Under the pieces are notes generated by a model, which did no database searches, was not told the DNA's origin, and was given only the letters and a program-made list of their open reading frames with translations. DNA of 64,000 nucleotides from Clostridiales bacterium (GTDB lineage: Bacteria > Bacillota > Clostridia > Christensenellales > Borkfalkiaceae): assembly GCA_015055655.1 (NCBI GenBank), contig SVHW01000003.1, positions 1 to 64,000 on the forward strand, written 5' to 3'. How positions within the stretch are numbered: position 1 is the first letter of the stretch; every line of letters begins with the position of its first letter. The position numbers and the translations under genes are program-made. Shown here piece by piece: positions 6,337-31,292 of the stretch.

Positions 6337-6404
6337 AGATGATTTCCTATTGTTTGAAATAATTACTCTATCGGCAATAACGTTATAGCTTAACGATACC
6401 AAAA

Positions 6405-6436
6405 GATAGAAAGTCTTGCCTGCGGTGGCTCACCGC
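6405..6436. repeat. Dispersed hairpin repeat, copy 1
   Basis: This copy reads GATAGAAAGTCTTGCCT followed by GCGGTG-GCT-CACCGC, a 6-bp stem with a 3-nt loop. It abuts the stop codon of the radical SAM gene, so on the minus strand the hairpin directly follows the stop. Other copies are at 22415, 28617, 28836 and 28980. The shared part extends left to about 6375 (AATAACGTTA...TAACGA). Confidence 0.75.
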
Positions 6437-7435
6437 TTAGGAATCGGTGATATAATCGCGAATATACAAAGGCACGCCTACGCTTTGGGAAAGCTTTTTA
6501 CACGCTTCCACTTCCTCTTCCCCGATACAATCGACGATAGAAAAGCGGCAGGGTACGCCGTTGCGTTTGCAAACCCTCGCAAATTCGAGAATTGCGTCAA
6601 ACGCCATTTCTCTAAACTGCGAACGACAAATTTTTTGATACTTTTCCGCGCAAGACGCGTTGAGGGAAATATTCACCAAATCGATTTTCCCCTTCAAATC
6701 GGGCACGATGTCGCGCTTGTTGATAAGGTTGCCTTGTCCGTTCGTGTTTAACCGCGTTTTTAAGCCCTTGCCGTGGAAATAATCGCACAACGCCACCATT
6801 TCCGCCACTTTGTACGTCGGCTCGCCAAAGCCGCAAAATACCGCTTCTTTGAAACGCGTGATATCTCCCATACCGTTCAGCGAAGCAATCACCTTTTCCG
6901 CGCTCGGTTCGCCGTGGCGAAGCCATAAATAGTTGCCGTAATAGCTGGTACGCTCGTTCCGCACACAAAAATCGCAGCCGTTGGAGCATTTGTTCGTCAA
7001 ATTGATATACAAGTTGCCGTCCAAAATATACGCGTACGTATCCTTGCGGTTCTCGTCCTTGTTTTGCGGTTGGTTTTGTTGCTTGTTCTTATTTTGGTTT
7101 TGCTGTTGCTGTTTATTTTTATTGCCACCGTTTTGATTGTTGGGGTTGCCCTGTTTTTGCGCGTTTTGCGGCTGTTTTTGCGCGTTATTTGCCTGCGCTT
7201 GCTTCGTCGGCTGGGCTTGGTGTTGCCCTTGTTGCGCATTTTGGCTATTTTGATTGTTTTGGCTATTTTGATTGTTTTGGTGGTTTTGATTGTTTTGGTG
7301 GTTTTGGTTATTCCCGTTGCCGCCTTTATGTTTCTTCTTTCTTCTGCGACGTCCACCGCCGTTGCCGCCGTGGCTTCCGTTTGCGTTGCCGTCGTTGGCA
7401 GGATTTTTAGGGGGAATATTTTTATTCTCTTCCAT
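6437..7435 (-). CDS. TatD-linked radical SAM protein with an Asn/Gln-rich N-terminal extension
   Basis: Residues ~135-332 form a radical SAM domain. The 4Fe-4S motif is C150-x3-C154-x2-C157 in NKCSNGCDFC, followed by a GFGEPTY glycine motif. Position directly after tatD fits the 'TatD-associated radical SAM' family, whose reaction is unknown. Residues 1-134 are unusual: a basic patch (RRRRKKKHK, ~29-37) and then ~90 residues made almost only of Asn, Gln, Lys and Gly, a prion-like disordered segment. The coding DNA there is an imperfect short tandem repeat. The start has AAAGGAAA upstream and lies 15 nt after tatD. Confidence 0.9.
   Translation of the reverse strand: MEENKNIPPKNPANDGNANGSHGGNGGGRRRRKKKHKGGNGNNQNHQNNQNHQNNQNSQNNQNSQNAQQGQHQAQPTKQAQANNAQKQPQNAQKQGNPNNQNGGNKNKQQQQNQNKNKQQNQPQNKDENRKDTYAYILDGNLYINLTNKCSNGCDFCVRNERTSYYGNYLWLRHGEPSAEKVIASLNGMGDITRFKEAVFCGFGEPTYKVAEMVALCDYFHGKGLKTRLNTNGQGNLINKRDIVPDLKGKIDLVNISLNASCAEKYQKICRSQFREMAFDAILEFARVCKRNGVPCRFSIVDCIGEEEVEACKKLSQSVGVPLYIRDYITDS
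7238..7311. repeat. Short tandem repeat coding for the Asn/Gln tract
   Basis: Imperfect 9- and 18-nt units (attgttttggtggttttg and variants with ggctattttg) repeat through this stretch of the radical SAM gene. Length may vary between strains by slippage. Confidence 0.7.
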
Positions 7436-17948: not shown

Positions 17949-18053
17949 ATTCGTTCTCTATTTCACAATATTTTTAGGTATAATTTTCTCTACGATAGCG
18001 TTATTTATCAACGCCAACGCAAGATAGAAAGAGTTAGCGCAAAGCCTCTCTAC

Positions 18054-19709
18054 TTACGACAAGCCTACGATAGTGCCGTCGGAAAGCAAATCGATTTTTT
18101 CCGCCGCAGGACGCGCGCCAAGCCCGGGCATCAGCATTATTTTTCCTGCAATCGCCACGATAAAGCCTGCGCCGCCTTTCAACATAATGTCGCGTACGGT
18201 AATTCTAAATCCCGTCGGTCTGCCAATCAGTTCCGCGTTATCGGAAAGCGAATACTGCGTTTTTGCCATAATAATCGGTTTATCGCCGTATCCCTTTTCT
18301 TCTATCGTCTTAATCTTCGCCAACGCTTCTTCCGAGAAATCTACGCCGTCCGCGCCGTATATCTTCTGCGCGAGTTTTTCTATCTTCGTGCAAACGTCTT
18401 CATTAAGTTCGTACGGGAAACAAAGTTTGGAGGGGATTTCGCACGCCTTTACCACTTCTTGCGCCAGCTCTTTACCGCCCTCGCCGCCTTTTAAGAATAC
18501 GTCGGTGAACACCGCCGTAGAACCTGCTTTTCTAACCGTTTCGATAACGTAATCCGTTTCCGCTTGCGTGTCGGTGAAAAATCTGTTCATCGCCACGACG
18601 ACGGGCTTTTTGTATACGTTTTGGATATTTTCGATATGTTTCAAAAGATTGGGCATACCCTTTGCCAACGCGTCGAGGTTTTCCTCGGCAAGCGTCGCTT
18701 TGTCTGCACCGCCGTGCAGTTTTAACGCCTTCACCGTCGCTACGATAACCACGCAATCGGGTTCGATGCCTGCCTTACGGCATTTCGCGTCGAGGAATTT
18801 CTCTGCGCCAAGGTCTGCGCCAAAGCCCGCCTCGGTAATCGCGTAATCGGCAAGGCTCATTGCCGCGTACGTCGCCTGTACGCTGTTGCAACCGTGCGCG
18901 ATATTCGCAAACGGTCCGCCGTGGATAATCGCAGGCGTATGTTCCAACGTTTGTACGAGGTTGGGTTTCATCGCCTCTTTAAGCAGCACCGCCATCGAAC
19001 CTACCGCGCCGGGGATTTCTCTTGCAAAAACGTAATCCCCGTCCGTGTTCAAGCCGATGATAATATTGCCCAAACGGCGTTTCAAATCGTCCAAATTGGT
19101 GGCAAGACAGAGCACCGCCATCACTTCGCTTGCCGCCGTGATGTCAAAATGGTCCTCTCTTTCCACGCCGCGCCCGTTTTTACCAACCGTCACGTTGATA
19201 AGCTGGCGTTCGTTCATATCCATACAGCGATGGAAATAAATGTTATCCAAATCAATTTTCAGCGCGTTGCCACGGAAAATATGGTTATCTACAAGCGCGC
19301 AAAGCAGGTTGTTTGCCGCGGTAATCGCGTGCAAATCGCCCGTGAAATGCAAATTGATGTCGCTCATTGGCACAACTTGCGCATAGCCGCCGCCCGCCGC
19401 GCCGCCTTTCATACCGAATACGGGGCCAAGGGAAGGCTCTCTTAAAGCAAGGCAAACCGATTTCCCAATTTTGGAAAGTCCGTCGCCAAGACCGATGGAA
19501 ACGGTGGTTTTGCCCTCGCCCGAAGCGGTGGGGTTAATCGCCGTCACCAAAACGAGTTTCGCTTTGCGTTTCGCTTTTTTCGGCAACGTAATTTTTGCCT
19601 TATACTTGCCGTATAATTCCAAATCCCCTTCTTTCAGCCCGATTTTTTTCGCCACTTTGCGAATATCAATCAGCTTGGCGGATTCTGCAATTTCAATATC
19701 TGAAAGCAT
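18054..19709 (-). CDS. fhs: Formate-tetrahydrofolate ligase
   Basis: Fhs makes 10-formyl-THF from formate, THF and ATP, feeding purine synthesis and, in acetogens, the methyl branch of the Wood-Ljungdahl pathway. The 551-residue product has the ATP motif NPTASGEGKTT and the family block EAGFGADLGAEKF. The start MLSDIEIAESAKL follows AAGGAG. No other one-carbon genes are adjacent, so acetogenesis is not implied. Confidence 0.97.
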   Translation of the reverse strand: MLSDIEIAESAKLIDIRKVAKKIGLKEGDLELYGKYKAKITLPKKAKRKAKLVLVTAINPTASGEGKTTVSIGLGDGLSKIGKSVCLALREPSLGPVFGMKGGAAGGGYAQVVPMSDINLHFTGDLHAITAANNLLCALVDNHIFRGNALKIDLDNIYFHRCMDMNERQLINVTVGKNGRGVEREDHFDITAASEVMAVLCLATNLDDLKRRLGNIIIGLNTDGDYVFAREIPGAVGSMAVLLKEAMKPNLVQTLEHTPAIIHGGPFANIAHGCNSVQATYAAMSLADYAITEAGFGADLGAEKFLDAKCRKAGIEPDCVVIVATVKALKLHGGADKATLAEENLDALAKGMPNLLKHIENIQNVYKKPVVVAMNRFFTDTQAETDYVIETVRKAGSTAVFTDVFLKGGEGGKELAQEVVKACEIPSKLCFPYELNEDVCTKIEKLAQKIYGADGVDFSEEALAKIKTIEEKGYGDKPIIMAKTQYSLSDNAELIGRPTGFRITVRDIMLKGGAGFIVAIAGKIMLMPGLGARPAAEKIDLLSDGTIVGLS

Positions 19710-22066: not shown

Positions 22067-22369
22067 AAAAAGCAAGGCGTATCGCCTTGCTTTTTTCGTT
22101 TATGGATACCGTTTCGGGGTTATCCCCGCATACGTGGCGGTTTTACGACGCCTTGAACGCCTTTCGGCGTTGAGAACGCAAAACTGCGTTTTGCTTTTGG
22201 AAGGGCTATACTCCGTCTTACGACGGCTCTTGACAGAGTGTCGTAAAGGCTCTGCCTTTACAATCCGCAAGGGACTATGCCCCTTGACCTCACGTAATGC
22301 ACATAACTAAAAAGCAAGGCAAATCGCCTTGCTTTTTTTCGTTTATTGATACTGCTTCGGGGGTTATCG
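22067..22369. repeat. Terminator duplicated around a mini-hairpin array
   Basis: The hairpin AAGCAAGGCG-TAT-CGCCTTGCTT with T-run plus ~30 nt of flank (22067-22127) recurs at 22309-22369. Copy 1 terminates the HTH gene; copy 2 can terminate gyrA. The ~180 nt between is a row of tiny stems: ACGCC-TTTC-GGCGT, GCAAAAC-TGC-GTTTTGC, CCGTC-TTAC-GACGG, GACA-GAG-TGTC, GTAAAGGC-TCT-GCCTTTAC, AAGGG-ACTATG-CCCCTT. No gene is seen. Confidence 0.8.
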
Positions 22370-22414
22370 CTATCTTTCCGTCCACGATAACCTTTTTTCT
22401 ATGCTTTCAAGAAA

Positions 22415-22447
22415 GATAGAAAGACTTGCCAGCAGTGGCTCACTGTC
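22415..22447. repeat. Dispersed hairpin repeat, copy 2 (next to gyrA stop)
   Basis: GATAGAAAGACTTGCCA is followed by GCAGTG-GCT-CACTGT. Relative to copy 1, both sides of the stem changed (G to A and C to T), so pairing is kept. It ends 2 nt from the gyrA stop codon. Confidence 0.75.
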
Positions 22448-22449
22448 TT

Positions 22450-25065
22450 CTAATCGGCGGGCGTTTCGTCTACCACTTCGTCGTCCAAAACAACCGCTTC
22501 TTCTACTTCTTCCGCTTCCACTTCGCCAACCAAATCTTCAGGGCTTAAATCCGCCGCCGTTTCTTCGGGCGCTTGCGTTTCCGCTTCGTCGTCGCGTTCG
22601 GTGATGTCCACCGTAGCCACTTCGCTGTCTTTTACGTTCATTACTCTAACGCCGCGCGTGCTTCTGCCGATATGGCTAATCGTGTCTGCGTGCATACGGA
22701 TAATGATGCCGCCCGTCGTGATAATCATAACGTCGTTTTCGTCCGTGACAAGACGCATATTCACCACTTCGCCCGTCTTTTCGTTGTAGATGCCCGATTT
22801 GATACCCTTGCCGCCACGGCTTTGCAAACGGTATTCGTCAAACGACGTACGTTTGCCGTAACCCAAAGACGTCAGCGTAAACAAATCTTGCGTTTCGTCC
22901 ACAATCAACATATCCACGACGATGTCGCCCTTGCCAAGCGTAATCGCTTTTACGCCCTGCGTGCCACGCCCCGTAGGACGTACGTCCGTTTCCGCAAAGC
23001 GGATGCACTTGCCTTGACGCGACGCCACGAAGATTTCGTTTTCGCCCGTCGTGAACTGCACGGAGATAAGTCTATCGTCTTCTTGCAACTTAATGGCAAT
23101 TTTACCGTTTTTGGGAATACGCTTGAATTCGTCCGTCGACGTCTTCTTAATTAAGCCGTTTTCCGTCGCCATAACGAGGAAGCCCGTTCCGTCTTCTTTG
23201 ACGGGCAACACCGCCTCGATGCGCTCCCCTTGGTCAAGCTGTACGATATTGACAATCGCTCTGCCTCTTGCCGTTCTGTTCGCTTCGGGAATTTCGTATC
23301 CTTTAATCGAATATACTTTGCCCTTGGACGAGAAGAGCAAGATAGGGTCGTGCGTGCACGTTACGAACATCTTCTCCACGTAATCCTCGTCTTTCGGTCT
23401 ATGCGCCGTAATCCCCTTGCCGCCGCGGCCTTGCGCCTTGTATTCGGCAACGGGCAAACGCTTGATATAACCCGAGTGCGTAATCGAAATAACGACGTCT
23501 TCTCTGTCGATAAGGTCTTCGTCGTCAATATTGCCGTAGTCCACGGAAATTTCCGATTTTCTGGGCGAAGGGTATTTCGCCTTGATTTCCGTCAAGTCGT
23601 TACGGATAATATCCATCACACGCCACTCGTTCGCCAAAATATCCTTCAAATCGGCAATCGTGTTATACAACGCAGTCAACTCGTCATTGAGTTTTTCCAC
23701 TTCCAAAGACGTCAATCTTTGCAAGCGCATTTCCAAAATAGCGTTGGCTTGTTTTTCGTCCAATTCGAACGCTTCCGTCAAACCCACAATCGCGCTGTTT
23801 TTATCCGCGCTGGCTTTGATGATACGGATAACTTCGTCCACGTTGGCAAGCGCAAGCACCAAGCCTGCAATGATATGCGCGCGTTCTTCCGTTTTATTTA
23901 AATCGTACTTCGTTCTGCGCGTAATCACTTCTTTTTGGTGGTCGAGATAGTATTTAAGCACTTCTTGCAAATTGAGCGTTTTCGGCTCGGTTCCGTTTTC
24001 CACGAGAGCGAGCAAGATAATGCCGTCGGAAGATTGCAATTTCGTCTTCTTATACAACGTATTTAACACGACTTGCGCGTTGGCATCCTTCTTGACTTCG
24101 ATAACGATACGCATACCGTCTCTGCCCGATTCGTCACGGATATCGGAAATGCCTTCAAGGCGTTTATCCTTAACCATATCCGCAATCGTTTTCACCAAAA
24201 CCGCTTTGTTTACCTGATAGGGAATTTCCGTCACGATAATACGGGAACGGATTTGCCCACCCGACGTATATTCCTCAATTTCGCATCTCGAACGGATAAC
24301 GATTTTGCCTTGTCCCGTTCTATACGCCTGACGGATGCCGCTTCTGCCCATAATCAAACCGCCCGTAGGGAAATCGGGGGCAGGGATATATTCCATCAAT
24401 TCGTCAATCGTGATTTCGGGGTTATCAATCATTGCAATCGTGCCGTCGATAACTTCCGCAAGGTTATGCGGCGGAATATTCGTCGCCATACCTACGGCGA
24501 TACCGTCCGAACCGTTGACAAGCAGGTTGGGATATCTTGCAGGAAGCACCGTCGGTTCTTCTTCGCTGCCGTCGAAGTTGGGGATAAAATCCACCGTTTC
24601 TTTATCCAAATCACGCAGCATTTCCGCCGCCAACTTGGTAAGCCTTGCTTCCGTATAACGCATAGCTGCCGCGCTGTCGCCGTCCACGCTACCGAAGTTG
24701 CCGTGGCCGTCTACGAGAGGGAAGCTGATGGTAAATTCTTGCGCCAATCTTACGAGCGCGTCGTATACCGAACTGTCGCCGTGAGGGTGATATTTACCCA
24801 TACAGTCACCGACGATACGGGCGCATTTTCTATACGCCTTATCGTTATACAACCCCATATCGTGCATTGCGTACAAAATTCTTCTATGCACGGGCTTCAA
24901 GCCGTCGCGCACGTCGGGGATAGCTCTCGATTTATTTACTGCCATCGCGTATGCGATAAACGAACGCTTTAACTCGTCGTCTACCTCTACGTCCAGCATT
25001 TTCGTCATTTCAAGTGTTTTCTTAAACGCCTCGGTTAATTCAGGACTGGTTTCTTTCTTTGCCAT
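22450..25065 (-). CDS. gyrA: DNA gyrase subunit A
   Basis: GyrA cuts and rejoins DNA for negative supercoiling. The 871-residue product has the catalytic Tyr137 in RYTEARL, and Ser98/Asp102 at the positions that mutate in quinolone resistance are wild type (HGDSSVYD). The GyrA box appears as QGRGGKG, confirming gyrase rather than topoisomerase IV. The C-terminal 65 residues are a strongly acidic tail. It begins 20 nt after gyrB with AGGAG. Confidence 0.98.
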
Positions 25066-28098: not shown

Positions 28099-28308
28099 AT
28101 GGAATTAAAGGGATTAAAAACAATTCGAAAGGAAAAGGGGTACAGTCAATTAAAGGTAGCAATGGATTTATCCATCAGCCGAGAAGCGTTATCCTATTAT
28201 GAAACAGGGAAACGCAGCCCCGACGTAAATATGTTGGTTGCTTTATCCAACTATTTCAACGTTTCCGTTGATTTTTTAATCCACGGCAAAGAATTTCAAG
28301 CAAAATAA
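28099..28308 (+). CDS. Small HTH (XRE-family) regulator
   Basis: The 69-residue single-domain regulator has the HTH YSQLKVAMDLSISREALSYY and ends VSVDFLIHGKEFQAK. It is divergent from the lipoprotein and separated from it by the two TGTAACA palindromes, its probable binding sites. The Shine-Dalgarno is remote (AAGAGG ~15 nt away), so initiation may be weak. A terminator overlaps its stop codon. Confidence 0.85.
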   Translation: MELKGLKTIRKEKGYSQLKVAMDLSISREALSYYETGKRSPDVNMLVALSNYFNVSVDFLIHGKEFQAK

Positions 28309-28343
28309 CGCCGCAACGTTTCCAAAGCGTTACGGTGTTTTTA
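28307..28343 (+). terminator. Terminator of the HTH gene
   Basis: A 12-position stem AACGCCGCAACG against CGTTACGGTGTT (one mismatch, one G-U), then TTTT. Confidence 0.7.
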
Positions 28344-28369
28344 TTTACTAAAAAATAGAAAAAGCTTAC

Positions 28370-28448
28370 CGCTTGAACGCCTGACGGCGTTGGTAACGCA
28401 AAACTTTGTTTTGCTTTGGATGGACTTTATTTTGCCCTTCGGGCAGAA
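28370..28448. repeat. Mini-hairpin DNA leading into the tandem repeats
   Basis: There is no gene. Stems in a row are ACGCC-TGAC-GGCGT, GCAAAAC-TTT-GTTTTGC and GCCC-TTC-GGGC. It is the same kind of array as at 22.1-22.3 kb. Confidence 0.65.
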
Positions 28449-28652
28449 ACGCCTGCGGCGTTGGGCGCAACCTACGGTTGCTTTTGGGAAGGCTTTATTT
28501 TGCCCTTTGGACAACTCTTGACAGAGTGTCGCAAGGGTTTCACCCCTGCACCCCATAAGGGACTATGCCCCTTAACCCCTCATTGACGATAACGTTACAC
28601 TCAAACATTAACGAAAGATAGAAAAATTTGCCAGCGGTGGCTCACCGTGCGG
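28449..28652. repeat. Tandem mini-hairpin unit 1
   Basis: A 204-nt unit that recurs at a 219-nt offset. Stems in order: ACGCC-TGC-GGCGT, GCAACC-TAC-GGTTGC, TTTGCCC-TTTGG region, GACA-GAG-TGTC, GGG-TTTCA-CCC, AAGGG-ACTATG-CCCCTT, then the dispersed element GATAGAAA...CGGTG-GCT-CACCG. No reading frame has a ribosome site. Confidence 0.8.
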
Positions 28653-28667
28653 AGGCTCGCCACTTGA

Positions 28668-28871
28668 ACGCCTGCGGCGTTGGGCGCAACCTACGGTTGC
28701 TTTTGAGAAGGCTTTATTTTGCCCTTTGGGCAACTCTTGACAGAGTGTCGCAAGGGTTTCACCCCTGCACCCCATAAGGGACTATGCCCCTTAACCCCTC
28801 GCCTACGATAACGTTACACCCAAGCACTAACGAAAGATAGAAAAATTTGCCAGCGGTGGCTCACCGTGCGG
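28668..28871. repeat. Tandem mini-hairpin unit 2
   Basis: Same layout as unit 1. Here the third stem is perfect (TTGCCC-TTT-GGGCAA), while unit 1 has a mismatch. It ends with the dispersed hairpin element. Confidence 0.8.
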
Positions 28872-29015
28872 CGGCGATTGCCATCGGGGCGTAAAGGCTC
28901 CGCCTTTACAATCCGCAAGGGACTATATCCCTTACCCCCATGTCGGCAACGACAACGTTACACCCAAGCGTTAACGAAAGATAGAAAAATTTGCCAGCGG
29001 TGGCTCACCGTGCGG
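28872..29015. repeat. Tandem mini-hairpin unit 3 (shorter variant)
   Basis: The front part is replaced by GTAAAGGC-TCC-GCCTTTAC, as in the array near gyrA. The tail (AACGTTACACCCAAG...GATAGAAA...CACCGTGCGG) matches units 1 and 2. Confidence 0.75.
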
Positions 29016-29093
29016 TGGCTCACCGATAGACGTACGTAACCGCGGGTTGCCACAGCGCAACGCAGTATTTCGATGCGCTATAATCCCAAACGC

Positions 29094-29124
29094 AAAAAAA
29101 GAAACCCCTGCGCATCGGCAGGGG
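29094..29124 (-). terminator. Terminator of the micro-ORF transcript
   Basis: On the minus strand, CCCCTGC and GCAGGGG form a stem, followed by TTTCTTTTTTT. Confidence 0.85.
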
Positions 29125-29252
29125 ATATTTTTCAAATTCATATATATTCAGTTGTAGAGCGTTCGTCTTTTGCTATCCGCCTCTTCTCTGAACTTAATTT
29201 CACCGTGTGCGATGCTTCGCGCCGCCTCGCACTCACTTATTTCGCGGATATT

Positions 29253-29282
29253 CTATTTGCGCTCCTCGATTTCGCTGTTCAT
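29253..29282 (-). CDS. Micro-ORF 3: 9-residue peptide, with possible amber read-through to 29148
   Basis: ATG with GAGAGGAT about 8 nt upstream encodes MNSEIEERK and then TAG. The same frame continues for 34 more sense codons to TGA (29148), giving a hydrophilic Glu/Arg-rich sequence in keeping with the first nine residues. Either the amber codon is read through or the frame is a truncated small gene. I do not recognise it. Confidence 0.4.
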   Translation of the reverse strand: MNSEIEERK

Positions 29283-29300
29283 TGGACCATCCTCTCTTTT

Positions 29301-29345
29301 TTATTTCTTGACGAAGTACCTACCTGCTTTTACTACTACGGTCAT
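29301..29345 (-). CDS. Micro-ORF 2: 14-residue basic peptide
   Basis: ATG with AAAGGAGG 8 nt upstream encodes MTVVVKAGRYFVKK. It has an ideal ribosome site and ends 18 nt before micro-ORF 3. It is unrecognised; a leader or signalling peptide is possible. Confidence 0.5.
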   Translation of the reverse strand: MTVVVKAGRYFVKK

Positions 29346-29363
29346 CTCCGTGCCCTCCTTTCG

Positions 29364-29396
29364 TTAAAGTTTACGTCCTCCTTTGTACGTCGGCAT
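29364..29396 (-). CDS. Micro-ORF 1: 10-residue basic peptide
   Basis: ATG with AAAGGAGGT about 10 nt upstream encodes MPTYKGGRKL. It is the first of three micro-ORFs in series. Upstream in the leader are GCCGTA-GGGA-TACGGC and a two-codon frame (ATG CAC TAA, 29478-29486) with AAGGAAAG before it. Confidence 0.5.
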   Translation of the reverse strand: MPTYKGGRKL

Positions 29397-29560
29397 CCCT
29401 TTTAATACCTCCTTTAACCGTTGGATTTTTTCGCCGTATCCCTACGGCACTTCCGTTAACCCTTGTTAACTTCTTTCTTAGTGCATTGGTCTTTCCTTCT
29501 CCACGTGGATTTTGAGAATTTCAAACACTTTTTGTTGCTTTCTTTCTCTTTTGTACCTTT

Positions 29561-29588
29561 ATTATAGCACGAAATTTTCATTTGTCAA
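29561..29588 (-). promoter_or_regulatory. Promoter of the micro-ORF transcript
   Basis: On the minus strand, TTGACA (29583-29588), 16 nt and TATAAT (29561-29566), both perfect. The predicted RNA runs to the terminator at 29094, about 460 nt. Confidence 0.8.
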
Positions 29589-29632
29589 TAGGTTTTTGAA
29601 AATTTTTTTACTTTTTTTATAATTTTTTTTAC

Positions 29633-29673
29633 GAAAAAGCCGCAATCCCTTGAAAAACCTGAGATTGCGGCTT
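29633..29673 (-). terminator. Terminator of the ppx-maf-mreB operon
   Basis: On the minus strand, AAGCCGCAATC pairs with GATTGCGGCTT, followed by TTTCG. Confidence 0.85.
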
Positions 29674-29691
29674 CGTTATTTTCTTGTTTTT

Positions 29692-30699
29692 TTATTCGAC
29701 GGGCAGCGAAAACGCCTTCAAAAGGTCTTTTTCTCGCAAAATCGCGCCGCCGCCGATAACGGTTGCAAACTGCGGTTCTTCACAGACGTGATAGCGCATT
29801 TCAAGTTTTGCGCCTATATATTGCGGCAACTGCGCAATTTTCATTACGCCACCCGACAAGTACACGCCTTTTCTATTGACGATTGCCGCCACTTCCGCAG
29901 GCAATTTACGAAGCACCGCCAACGCATATTCTAATATCTTATCCACGTACACGCGTATGCAATCGGTTAAATCCGCCGCCTGTACGCTTGCCGCGGCAGG
30001 CCGACAGGCGTCTATCGAACTCCCTTCCGCCACCATTGCGCCACGCGCCACCGTCGACATAGAACCAAGTTCGTTTTTCAACCTTTCCGCCGTCAACGCG
30101 CCAATACGCAATCCGTTCACCCTCGCCACTTTTGCCAAGACGTTGGCGTCCATATTATTCCCGCCTACGTTCATCGATACGCCAGAAATAATCCCGTCGG
30201 CGGATACGACGGCTATATTCGTTACGCCGCCGCCGATATCCAAACAAAATACCGGGTCGCTATCACTAATTACCGCGCCTGCGCCTACCGCCGCCAAATA
30301 CGGCTGTTCGACGAAATGTACCTTTCTCAAGCCACACTCTTCTGCGAGCGCGATATACTGCGACAAAACGCTCGCCGAAACGCCGCAAGGCACGCAAAAC
30401 AGCGCTTGAATTCTATGCAATACGCCCGTCTTTACGCCTATGCGCGCAAAAAACTCTTTTAACATCGCCACGGCAAGGCGCATATCGATAATCTCCCCTT
30501 CGTATACGGGATATACGATGCTGGTGTATTCCGCCGTTTTTCCGATAAGATTTTTCGCCTCTTTCCCCACCGCTTTTATCGCTCTGTCCTCTCCGTACAC
30601 AGCCACGCAAGACGGCTCGGCAAGCACGACGCCGCTGCTGGTATCCGCGCGGTAAATTTTCGTCATAGACGAACCTAAGTCTATCGCTAATTTCCACAT
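29692..30699 (-). CDS. Actin-like rod-shape protein MreB/Mbl
   Basis: MreB filaments guide lateral cell-wall synthesis. The 335-residue protein starts MWKLAIDLGSSMTKIY (phosphate 1 motif), with LDIGGGVTNIAVV (phosphate 2) and the adenosine-type end GVYLSGGVMKIAQLP. The start is set by the family N-terminus. It follows maf after 11 nt, recalling the maf-mreBCD cluster, but mreC/mreD are absent. Several positions differ from classical MreB, so it may be a paralogue. Confidence 0.88.
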   Translation of the reverse strand: MWKLAIDLGSSMTKIYRADTSSGVVLAEPSCVAVYGEDRAIKAVGKEAKNLIGKTAEYTSIVYPVYEGEIIDMRLAVAMLKEFFARIGVKTGVLHRIQALFCVPCGVSASVLSQYIALAEECGLRKVHFVEQPYLAAVGAGAVISDSDPVFCLDIGGGVTNIAVVSADGIISGVSMNVGGNNMDANVLAKVARVNGLRIGALTAERLKNELGSMSTVARGAMVAEGSSIDACRPAAASVQAADLTDCIRVYVDKILEYALAVLRKLPAEVAAIVNRKGVYLSGGVMKIAQLPQYIGAKLEMRYHVCEEPQFATVIGGGAILREKDLLKAFSLPVE

Positions 30700-30710
30700 A
30701 TCCGTTCCCT

Positions 30711-31292
30711 TTATCCTTTTTTCAACGCCTTTATCGATTGTACCATCTCTTGACAAAGTTCGACGGGTAAACCCACTACGTTGGTAAAGCTCCCCTCAAT
30801 CCTTGCCACCAAGCCGCCGTCCTGAATCCCGTACGCTCCCGCCTTATCCATTGGCGAGCCGCCTTGTACGTACGCGTCGATAAACGCGTCGCTCAGTTCG
30901 TTAAATTGCACCCTCGTACAATCGGCGCGCAATAGCTCTTTTCTCCCTTCTTTACCGTCGGGATAAACGATACATACGCCCGTATATACTTCGTGCGTTT
31001 TCCCCGACAGCATTTTCAGCATCCGTTTTGCGTCCGCTTCGTCCTTGGGCTTCCCTAAAATTTCACCCTCGTACGCCACCACCGTGTCCGCGCCAAGCAC
31101 GCATTTGCCTTGCGCCCGTTCGCACGAAGCCACTTCTTCCGCTTTTTGCTTTGCAAGCAGCTGCACCAACGCTTTGGGCGACGTTTCCAATACGCGTTCT
31201 TCCCCGTTTGCCACGATGATTTCAAACGCGTCCACCACTTCTTTAAACAGCTGTTTTCTCCGCGGCGAAGCGCTTGCCAAAATCCAATCCAT
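30711..31292 (-). CDS. maf: Maf-type nucleoside triphosphate pyrophosphatase
   Basis: Maf proteins hydrolyse dTTP/UTP or modified nucleotides as a house-cleaning step and affect septation. The 193-residue product starts MDWILASASPRRKQL (family signature) and has VLGADTVVAYEG and GAYGIQDGG. The start is chosen by homology; GGGGAG lies very close upstream, and an upstream TTG would add an unrelated extension. Confidence 0.93.
   Translation of the reverse strand: MDWILASASPRRKQLFKEVVDAFEIIVANGEERVLETSPKALVQLLAKQKAEEVASCERAQGKCVLGADTVVAYEGEILGKPKDEADAKRMLKMLSGKTHEVYTGVCIVYPDGKEGRKELLRADCTRVQFNELSDAFIDAYVQGGSPMDKAGAYGIQDGGLVARIEGSFTNVVGLPVELCQEMVQSIKALKKG

Follow-up and report, generated by a model that had tools for sequence, protein, structure and literature searches.

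Small structured repeats are common in bacteria; the question addressed here is by what means the RAYT-less ones spread, and whether they act as parasites or as parts of 3'-UTRs. Some, like the small dispersed repeats of cyanobacteria, are very small and hairpin-forming and resemble the family treated below by description only. Likewise by description, the closest kind on record would be the BOX elements of Streptococcus pneumoniae. According to PMC3049150, these are composites of the form boxA-boxBn-boxC, with tandem inner modules that vary in number, predicted RNA stem-loops and an intergenic spread; 58 CDSs overlap a BOX, and in 36 of them the repeat makes up the very 3' end, stop codon included. 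REP sequences and REPINs, which go with a RAYT, are palindromes with short loops and a short conserved foot that form tandem clusters and spread non-autonomously (PMC3733652, PMC3116915). In Volvox organelles, intergenic DNA consists of short hairpins that have inserted into each other, whose 3-5 nt loops favor a single type and which are regarded as selfish (PMC2670323); the same source cites the double-hairpin elements of Allomyces mtDNA.

The window, that is, the whole stretch of 64,000 nt that was analyzed, contains an intergenic hairpin array that is one locus of a dispersed repeat family with two separable parts. One part, the core, is about 130 nt long and has six ordered hairpins; the other, the head, is about 68 nt long and has two hairpins around a TTTCTATC box. 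The array is a head plus a core, expanded in tandem. Each part has its own covariance model, R1 for the core (130 positions) and R2 for the head (68 positions), and the copies in the window are as follows.

28364..29030, element sense on the - strand: the whole hairpin array, in the order [A B C][A B C D E F G H I][A B C D E F G H I][E F G H I][I] when read on the + strand
28376..28445, -: left partial core, hairpins A, B and C only (R1 match at 28376-28431, 35.9 bits)
28447..28574, -: core of unit 1 (R1, 127.4 bits), with hairpins A 28448-28462, B 28467-28481, C 28500-28514 (one mismatch), D 28515-28526, E 28531-28549 and F 28556-28574
28586..28653, -: head (G-H-I) of unit 1 (R2, 83.1 bits), with G stem 28588-28613, box 28614-28630 and hairpin I 28635-28647
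28666..28793, -: core of unit 2 (R1, 130.0 bits), with hairpins A 28667-28681, B 28686-28700, C 28719-28733, D 28734-28745, E 28750-28768 and F 28775-28793
28805..28872, -: head of unit 2 (R2, 81.2 bits)
28891..28934, -: third core, shortened to E 28891-28909 and F 28917-28933 (R1 match at 28815-28934, 50.3 bits)
28949..29016, -: head of unit 3 (R2, 83.9 bits)
29013..29025, -: additional copy of hairpin I (15-nt tandem at 28997-29025)
22384..22451, -: further head (R2, 68.8 bits), its hairpin starting 4 nt after the stop of the ORF at 22450-25065 (-)
22156..22286, -: further core, downstream of the head at 22384-22451 (R1, 139.2 bits)
6374..6441, -: solo head, flush with a TAA stop (R2, 73.0 bits)
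17992..18058, -: weak head about 2 nt behind a stop codon, with hairpin I degraded (R2, 36.8 bits)

Across 28364-29030 there are 18 perfect hairpins (stem of at least 5, loop of 3-5), covering 256 of the 667 nt, compared with a mean of 2.3 (maximum 9) in 300 dinucleotide shuffles and of 3.2 (maximum 12) in the 93 other 667-nt tiles of the window. The array of tiny-loop hairpins in the preliminary description is thus real, and the stems that it named are present; one of them, GACA-GAG-TGTC, exists as sequence, but the pairing that the alignment keeps is the alternative CTCT-TGAC-AGAG (helix 3). The 219-nt tandem units likewise hold up: two 209-nt copies (28448-28656 and 28667-28875) lie exactly 219 nt apart with 95% identity, and the third unit, previously called a variant, is shorter and has 77 nt in common with them (28943-29019), 144 nt further on. 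Repeats of 77-209 nt that nearly adjoin one another do not have the CRISPR layout of short identical repeats and unique spacers, as had been stated. Nor is there a convincing coding frame, since the only listed ORF of at least 60 aa across the array encodes 71 aa (28341-28556, -) and has no match in Pfam.

To the left of the array lies a 69-aa HTH gene (28099-28308, +), and further out on that side a GyrB-like gene and an 871-aa ORF (22450-25065, -), which we take to be GyrA-like; to the right of the array lies an MreB-like gene (29692-30756, -). The array does not directly follow a protein stop codon. Its 5' neighbors in the sense direction are a terminator and a third repeat family (29026-29090), which also occurs at L009, L012 and L025, in tandem at L009 and L025; by eye, its copies have the pieces GTTGCGCTGTGGCAACCC and GGTTACGTACG in common. 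Nearby, at 29588-29105 (-), a perfect TTGACA-16-TATAAT promoter with a TG is followed by about 460 nt and a strong terminator. This interval has no listed - strand ORF of 60 aa and no Rfam match at gathering score, and is a possible unannotated RNA or small-peptide transcript. In Rfam 15, the sole gathering-score match in the window is a tRNA; over 28300-29700 at E<=5 there are five matches, the best at E 0.25, all under gathering score.

Read in the element sense, the - strand of the window, the head consists of hairpin I' (e.g., CGGTG-AGC-CACCG), a linker with the TTTCTATC box, and hairpin G' (e.g., TAACG...CGTTA). The core runs F' (AAGGG..CCCTT), E', D' (CTCT-GTCA-AGAG), C', B' and A' (AACGCC-..-GGCGTT), an order that is the same in 12 aligned copies of the own genome and in the complete copies examined in relatives, with some copies lacking inner hairpins. 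Over 129 cores, the 5' edge is RRGT, the last two positions being 98% G and 98% T, and at the other end the signal drops immediately past A'. Heads occur solo or flank a core on both sides, and a core may occur with or without a head. In two relatives (G004 and G035; L182, L184, L187, L189 and L237), cores were also seen as inverted pairs or as tandem copies spaced about 165 nt apart. A second array family, with a GTGAAATG / GTGAAGT (ACTTCAC) box followed by varying tiny-loop hairpins, repeated, was observed at the same kinds of junctions: L169 (leuD-leuB in G022), L135 (pyrD-pyrE in G006) and L287 (in G061).

Going by these descriptions, the family is like BOX in being a modular composite with repeatable, tandem inner modules, an intergenic spread and stop codons supplied by the repeat. 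It is unlike BOX in its host and module set, in consisting nearly entirely of tiny-loop hairpins, in a head that often sits flush on stops in one orientation, and in a core that comes with or without the head. REP/REPIN elements share its palindromes, short loops, short foot and clusters; their foot, however, is GTAG rather than RRGT, and their unit is unlike the six hairpins in fixed order plus a two-hairpin head found here, in a genome without RAYT/Y1. The Volvox repeats, similar in loop size, are organellar and have TAAA/TTTA loops, whereas the present family has c(GNNA)g loops and docks on stop codons. These nearest candidates were compared by description, and no relation of the family to a described one was found; no account of it was found in Rfam or in a literature search that covered subscription journals thinly.

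How widely is the family dispersed? In the own genome (G000, 1.38 Mb, 96.7% complete), BLAST gave 26 matches, including the array itself and several pieces of one locus; R1 found 14 cores in the 1.38 Mb and R2 found 33 heads at E<=1e-3. Copy counts in relatives are lower bounds. By R1, the core is present in at least 25 of 61 genomes: the own genome, at least 23 of 36 from the same genus and at least 1 of 24 from other families. Over 200 genomes of the order at E<=1e-6, R1 matched the own genome and at least four others, the latter weakly (one or two matches per genome, 37-46 bits); among 12 listed genomes from other genera of the same family, there were none among the matches listed. Heads (R2) are abundant in three genomes, namely, the own genome, G034 (at least 51) and G061 (at least 35), the latter a MAG and the sister genome, about 77-90% identical over aligned genes. 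Another relative (G033) has at least 5 and ten others have 1-4, so that at least 13 of 37 genomes have any head, and 24 of the 37 genus genomes have no head match.

The copies examined lie between ordinary chromosomal genes. Phage and plasmid records had no match to the family, and a phage or plasmid origin was therefore rejected. IMG/VR had 0 exact matches to one head pattern, and one F' pattern gave four stretches, each scoring 17 bits to R1 over positions 1-44. A pattern scan of genome contigs also picked up a Deltaproteobacteria stretch (L051), which had no R1 match and was consequently counted as chance.

The stems change but stay paired. In the core alignment (A1, 12 rows), 96.5% of 288 cells pair, and 27 cells are changed on both sides, compared with 7.9 in shuffles and 1-4 in slid controls. 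In the head alignment (A2, 22 rows), 83.5% of 285 cells pair, with 29 two-sided changes compared with 12.9 and 5-11, respectively. The rows of both were chosen by eye; one chance hit and the degenerate copy at the left end of the window array were omitted. Alignment of 141 matches by R1 (A3) has 98.0% of cells paired, 23 of 24 pairs changing on both sides, and 635 two-sided cells (shuffles, 145; slid controls, no more than 149), although A3 leans toward structure because it was fitted to the structure. With no fitting, 129 cores contain 554 perfect hairpins, compared with a shuffle mean of 56 (maximum 70). This set comprises the 117 highest-scoring of the 141 R1 matches, the 24 lowest (49.0 bits or less) being omitted, and 12 of 15 own matches; 97 of 100 retrieved stretches were searched for R1 matches. 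Stems differ on both sides and still pair at orthologous sites, too. At one junction (L093/L327), which we take to be smc-ftsY, hairpin I' reads GCGGTG-AGC-CACCGC in the own genome and GTAGCG-AGC-CGCTAC in the sister genome, amounting to three double changes. The preliminary description had staked its case on copies elsewhere in the genome and compensatory changes between units; the 26 BLAST matches and the many two-sided changes provide both, and the covariation supports a structured element. It is not, on the other hand, proof of RNA function, because template switching during replication can perfect stems and yield multi-base compensatory changes, as reported in PMC8794818.

The loops bear on the nature of the structure. 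Among 224 unique perfect hairpins in the 129 cores, in the sense orientation, there are 70 tetraloops and 143 triloops. GNNA accounts for 51 of the 70 tetraloops; its reverse complement, TNNC, and UNCG account for none, and C-G closes 67. Purines and pyrimidines are equal at the third position of GNNA (26 GNRA, 25 GNYA). The triloops include 37 GNA and 4 TNC, the rest being mostly A-rich, and 124 of the 143 close with C-G. In terminator-like hairpins of the examined loci, GNNA makes up 5 of 70 tetraloops. RNA favors GNRA and UUCG loops; d(cGNNAg) and d(cGNAg) are reportedly unusually stable DNA minihairpin motifs (work attributed to Nakano and Bevilacqua and to Yoshizawa and Hirao). The loop types thus lean toward DNA hairpins, without proof. 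The suggestion of a structured RNA fares accordingly: the structure stands, but RNA over single-stranded DNA is not favored by the loop types or by the weak folding asymmetry across the genus.

Heads dock on stop codons in the sense orientation. Sixty heads with loci were tested, the 30 best of 33 in the own genome and the 30 best of 35 in the sister genome, counting those whose hairpin arm starts between -25 and +10 nt from the stop of a sense open frame of at least 90 codons. In this set, which is not one of independent heads because it includes tandem copies and orthologous pairs, 33 of 60 lie near a sense stop (values -12 to +10) and 27 lie away from any detected one; in the mirror control, from the 3' edge to an antisense stop over the same range, 2 of 60 do so. 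At L012, L022 and L023, a TGA within hairpin I' is the gene's stop codon, and in the own genome the head supplies the TGA of pyrD, replacing the last codons seen in relatives. Heads are found between co-directional genes that look like operon partners, presumably ilvD-ilvB, leuD-leuB and pyrD-pyrE. Cores are placed less strictly, with 86 of the 125 that have a left neighbor following a 3' end and 39 a 5' end; by the same crude ORF calling, 22 of 30 own heads follow a 3' end and 8 a 5' end. An intrinsic terminator would have a T run within 0-2 nt of a GC stem; after hairpin I, about 8 nt precede the T-rich box, and the T run varies among copies. All three array heads were called terminators, via a different stem that contains G-T pairs. 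The place of the heads behind stop codons, and their orientation there, favor a transcribed 3'-UTR element.

Comparison between genomes shows presence and absence at orthologous junctions. Of the pyrD-pyrE junction, 30 loci were obtained from 36 matching genomes, and 21 of these have 5-33 nt between the genes. By model, there is a head in the own genome, a core in each of G022 and G023, a weak head-like match in G011 (22.2 bits), and a core (121 bits) behind an apparent decayed head in the sister genome; G006 has another hairpin array and G008 has 54 nt, while G007, G030 and G033 are not comparable. The head at 6374-6441 is common to the own and sister genomes, but only the latter has a core behind it (130.6 bits). 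Thus the check in a sister genome that had been proposed finds a core there where the own genome has the head alone. Both genomes have head plus core at L093/L327, and some heads are kept at orthologous stop codons in the two, with their stems preserved. The leuD-leuB comparison was made by eye and is left out of the counts. A relative of the array's HTH neighbor, with 82% DNA identity, was observed in the sister genome at L280, followed by a terminator-like hairpin and other sequence and no array; this is not a clean empty site, because the other neighbors differ.

Cores resemble other cores of their own genome. The nearest neighbor is from the same genome for 109 of 129 cores (label shuffles: mean 11.4, maximum 24), and, with cores of the same locus excluded, for 107 of 125, a clustering that reflects either amplification within lineages or gene conversion. 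The earlier notion of a mobile repeat is borne out by dispersed copies, genome-specific subfamilies, presence and absence at orthologous junctions and many empty sites, and we consider this part of the explanation likely. Several points pull the other way: gene conversion could account for the likeness within genomes, and a purely selfish element need not keep its heads at orthologous stops with preserved stems. No target-site duplication or terminal inverted repeat was noticed at one resolved plus/minus site or in the edge profiles.

What, then, moves or maintains these repeats? The mover was not found among the Y1 and reverse transcriptase candidates, which also counts against mobility. Y1_Tnp (PF01797) has no match in the 96.7%-complete own genome and, in 22 same-genus relatives, occurs in 3 of 13 with the core and in 4 of 9 without it (one of the four under the curated cut-off), and a RAYT/Y1 transposase was rejected on both counts. 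REP/REPIN-type elements whose tyrosine (Y1) transposase has been lost or is absent from the assembly would account for hairpins with a conserved short foot and for dispersed and tandem arrays. However, the absence of Y1 from the own genome and its lack of association with the core argue against this, as does a foot that is neither GTAG nor CGTC, and it is the least probable of the explanations considered, in agreement with the earlier view that the array is not REP. A reverse transcriptase was rejected likewise: RVT_1 is found in 8 of 37 genomes, in 6 of 24 with the core (own included) and in 2 of 13 others, and not in the head-rich G034. The own genome does encode a retron-type RT of 302 aa (L332:1246-2154, -, on G000:C15), which PADLOC calls RT_Ec107-like (414.8 bits). 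A neutral by-product of replication is improbable as well. According to this explanation, template switching creates, perfects and tandemly multiplies inverted repeats without transposition or function, which agrees with what PMC8794818 says of perfect stems and multi-base compensatory changes, with the three double changes in one orthologous hairpin pair and with the 219-nt units, but it leaves unexplained the genus-wide module order, the dispersal to many loci, the conserved unpaired boxes (TTTCTATC and the RRGT edge), the loop preference and the orientation toward stop codons.

The remaining alternative is a functional cis-acting RNA, in which the head would be a 3'-UTR or intercistronic device (an mRNA stabilizer, processing site or partial terminator) selected behind stops and the core an accessory structured RNA. 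Sense docking and the heads kept at orthologous junctions with compensatory differences (L093/L327) speak for it, and in the own genome 11 of 12 cores fold better as RNA on the sense strand. Over all 129 cores, however, the sense strand is better in only 75 with RNA parameters and in 95 with DNA parameters (mean z, -3.67 sense and -3.25 antisense). As a test of strand, RNA folding is therefore strong for the own copies and fails across the genus; a test on wobble pairs (40 G-T and 30 A-C single mismatches) was too weak. GNYA loops as common as GNRA, the absence of UNCG and the 24 of 37 genus genomes without a head also speak against an RNA function, and heads that lie between co-directional, operon-like genes must, as terminators, be weak or regulated. 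We regard this explanation as unlikely, and a cis-RNA role retained by otherwise mobile copies as equally doubtful.

We prefer to read the family as composite hairpin repeats that are non-autonomous and of the same kind as BOX elements or MITEs, and assign this reading a probability of roughly two in three. Core and head can each stand alone and, when joined, may alternate and expand in tandem. Copies might multiply in the form of single-stranded DNA hairpins, or through template switching during replication, with the help of a putative enzyme acting in trans; spread through single-stranded DNA is a tentative part of this account. Insertions would persist chiefly in the space from a stop codon to the following gene, and settled copies would presumably be transcribed as 3'-UTR or intercistronic RNA. 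Counting against the reading are also the looser placement of cores, the 27 of 60 heads away from a detected sense stop, and the array of the window, which does not abut a protein stop. In its fullest form, that of a mobile element that docks in one direction exactly on stops, spreads as single-stranded DNA by means of extra-stable c(GNNA)g minihairpins and a putative enzyme, and gives many genes of a bacterial genus a structured 3'-UTR and sometimes a new stop, the proposal is a speculative one with the odds against it.

The family is a compact test case for the spread of RAYT-less repeats: its head and core are defined, each has a covariance model, and heads follow a docking rule at stop codons. 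The sister genome adds both common and unshared sites. The family is also a warning that repeats may show strong covariation without any function as RNA.
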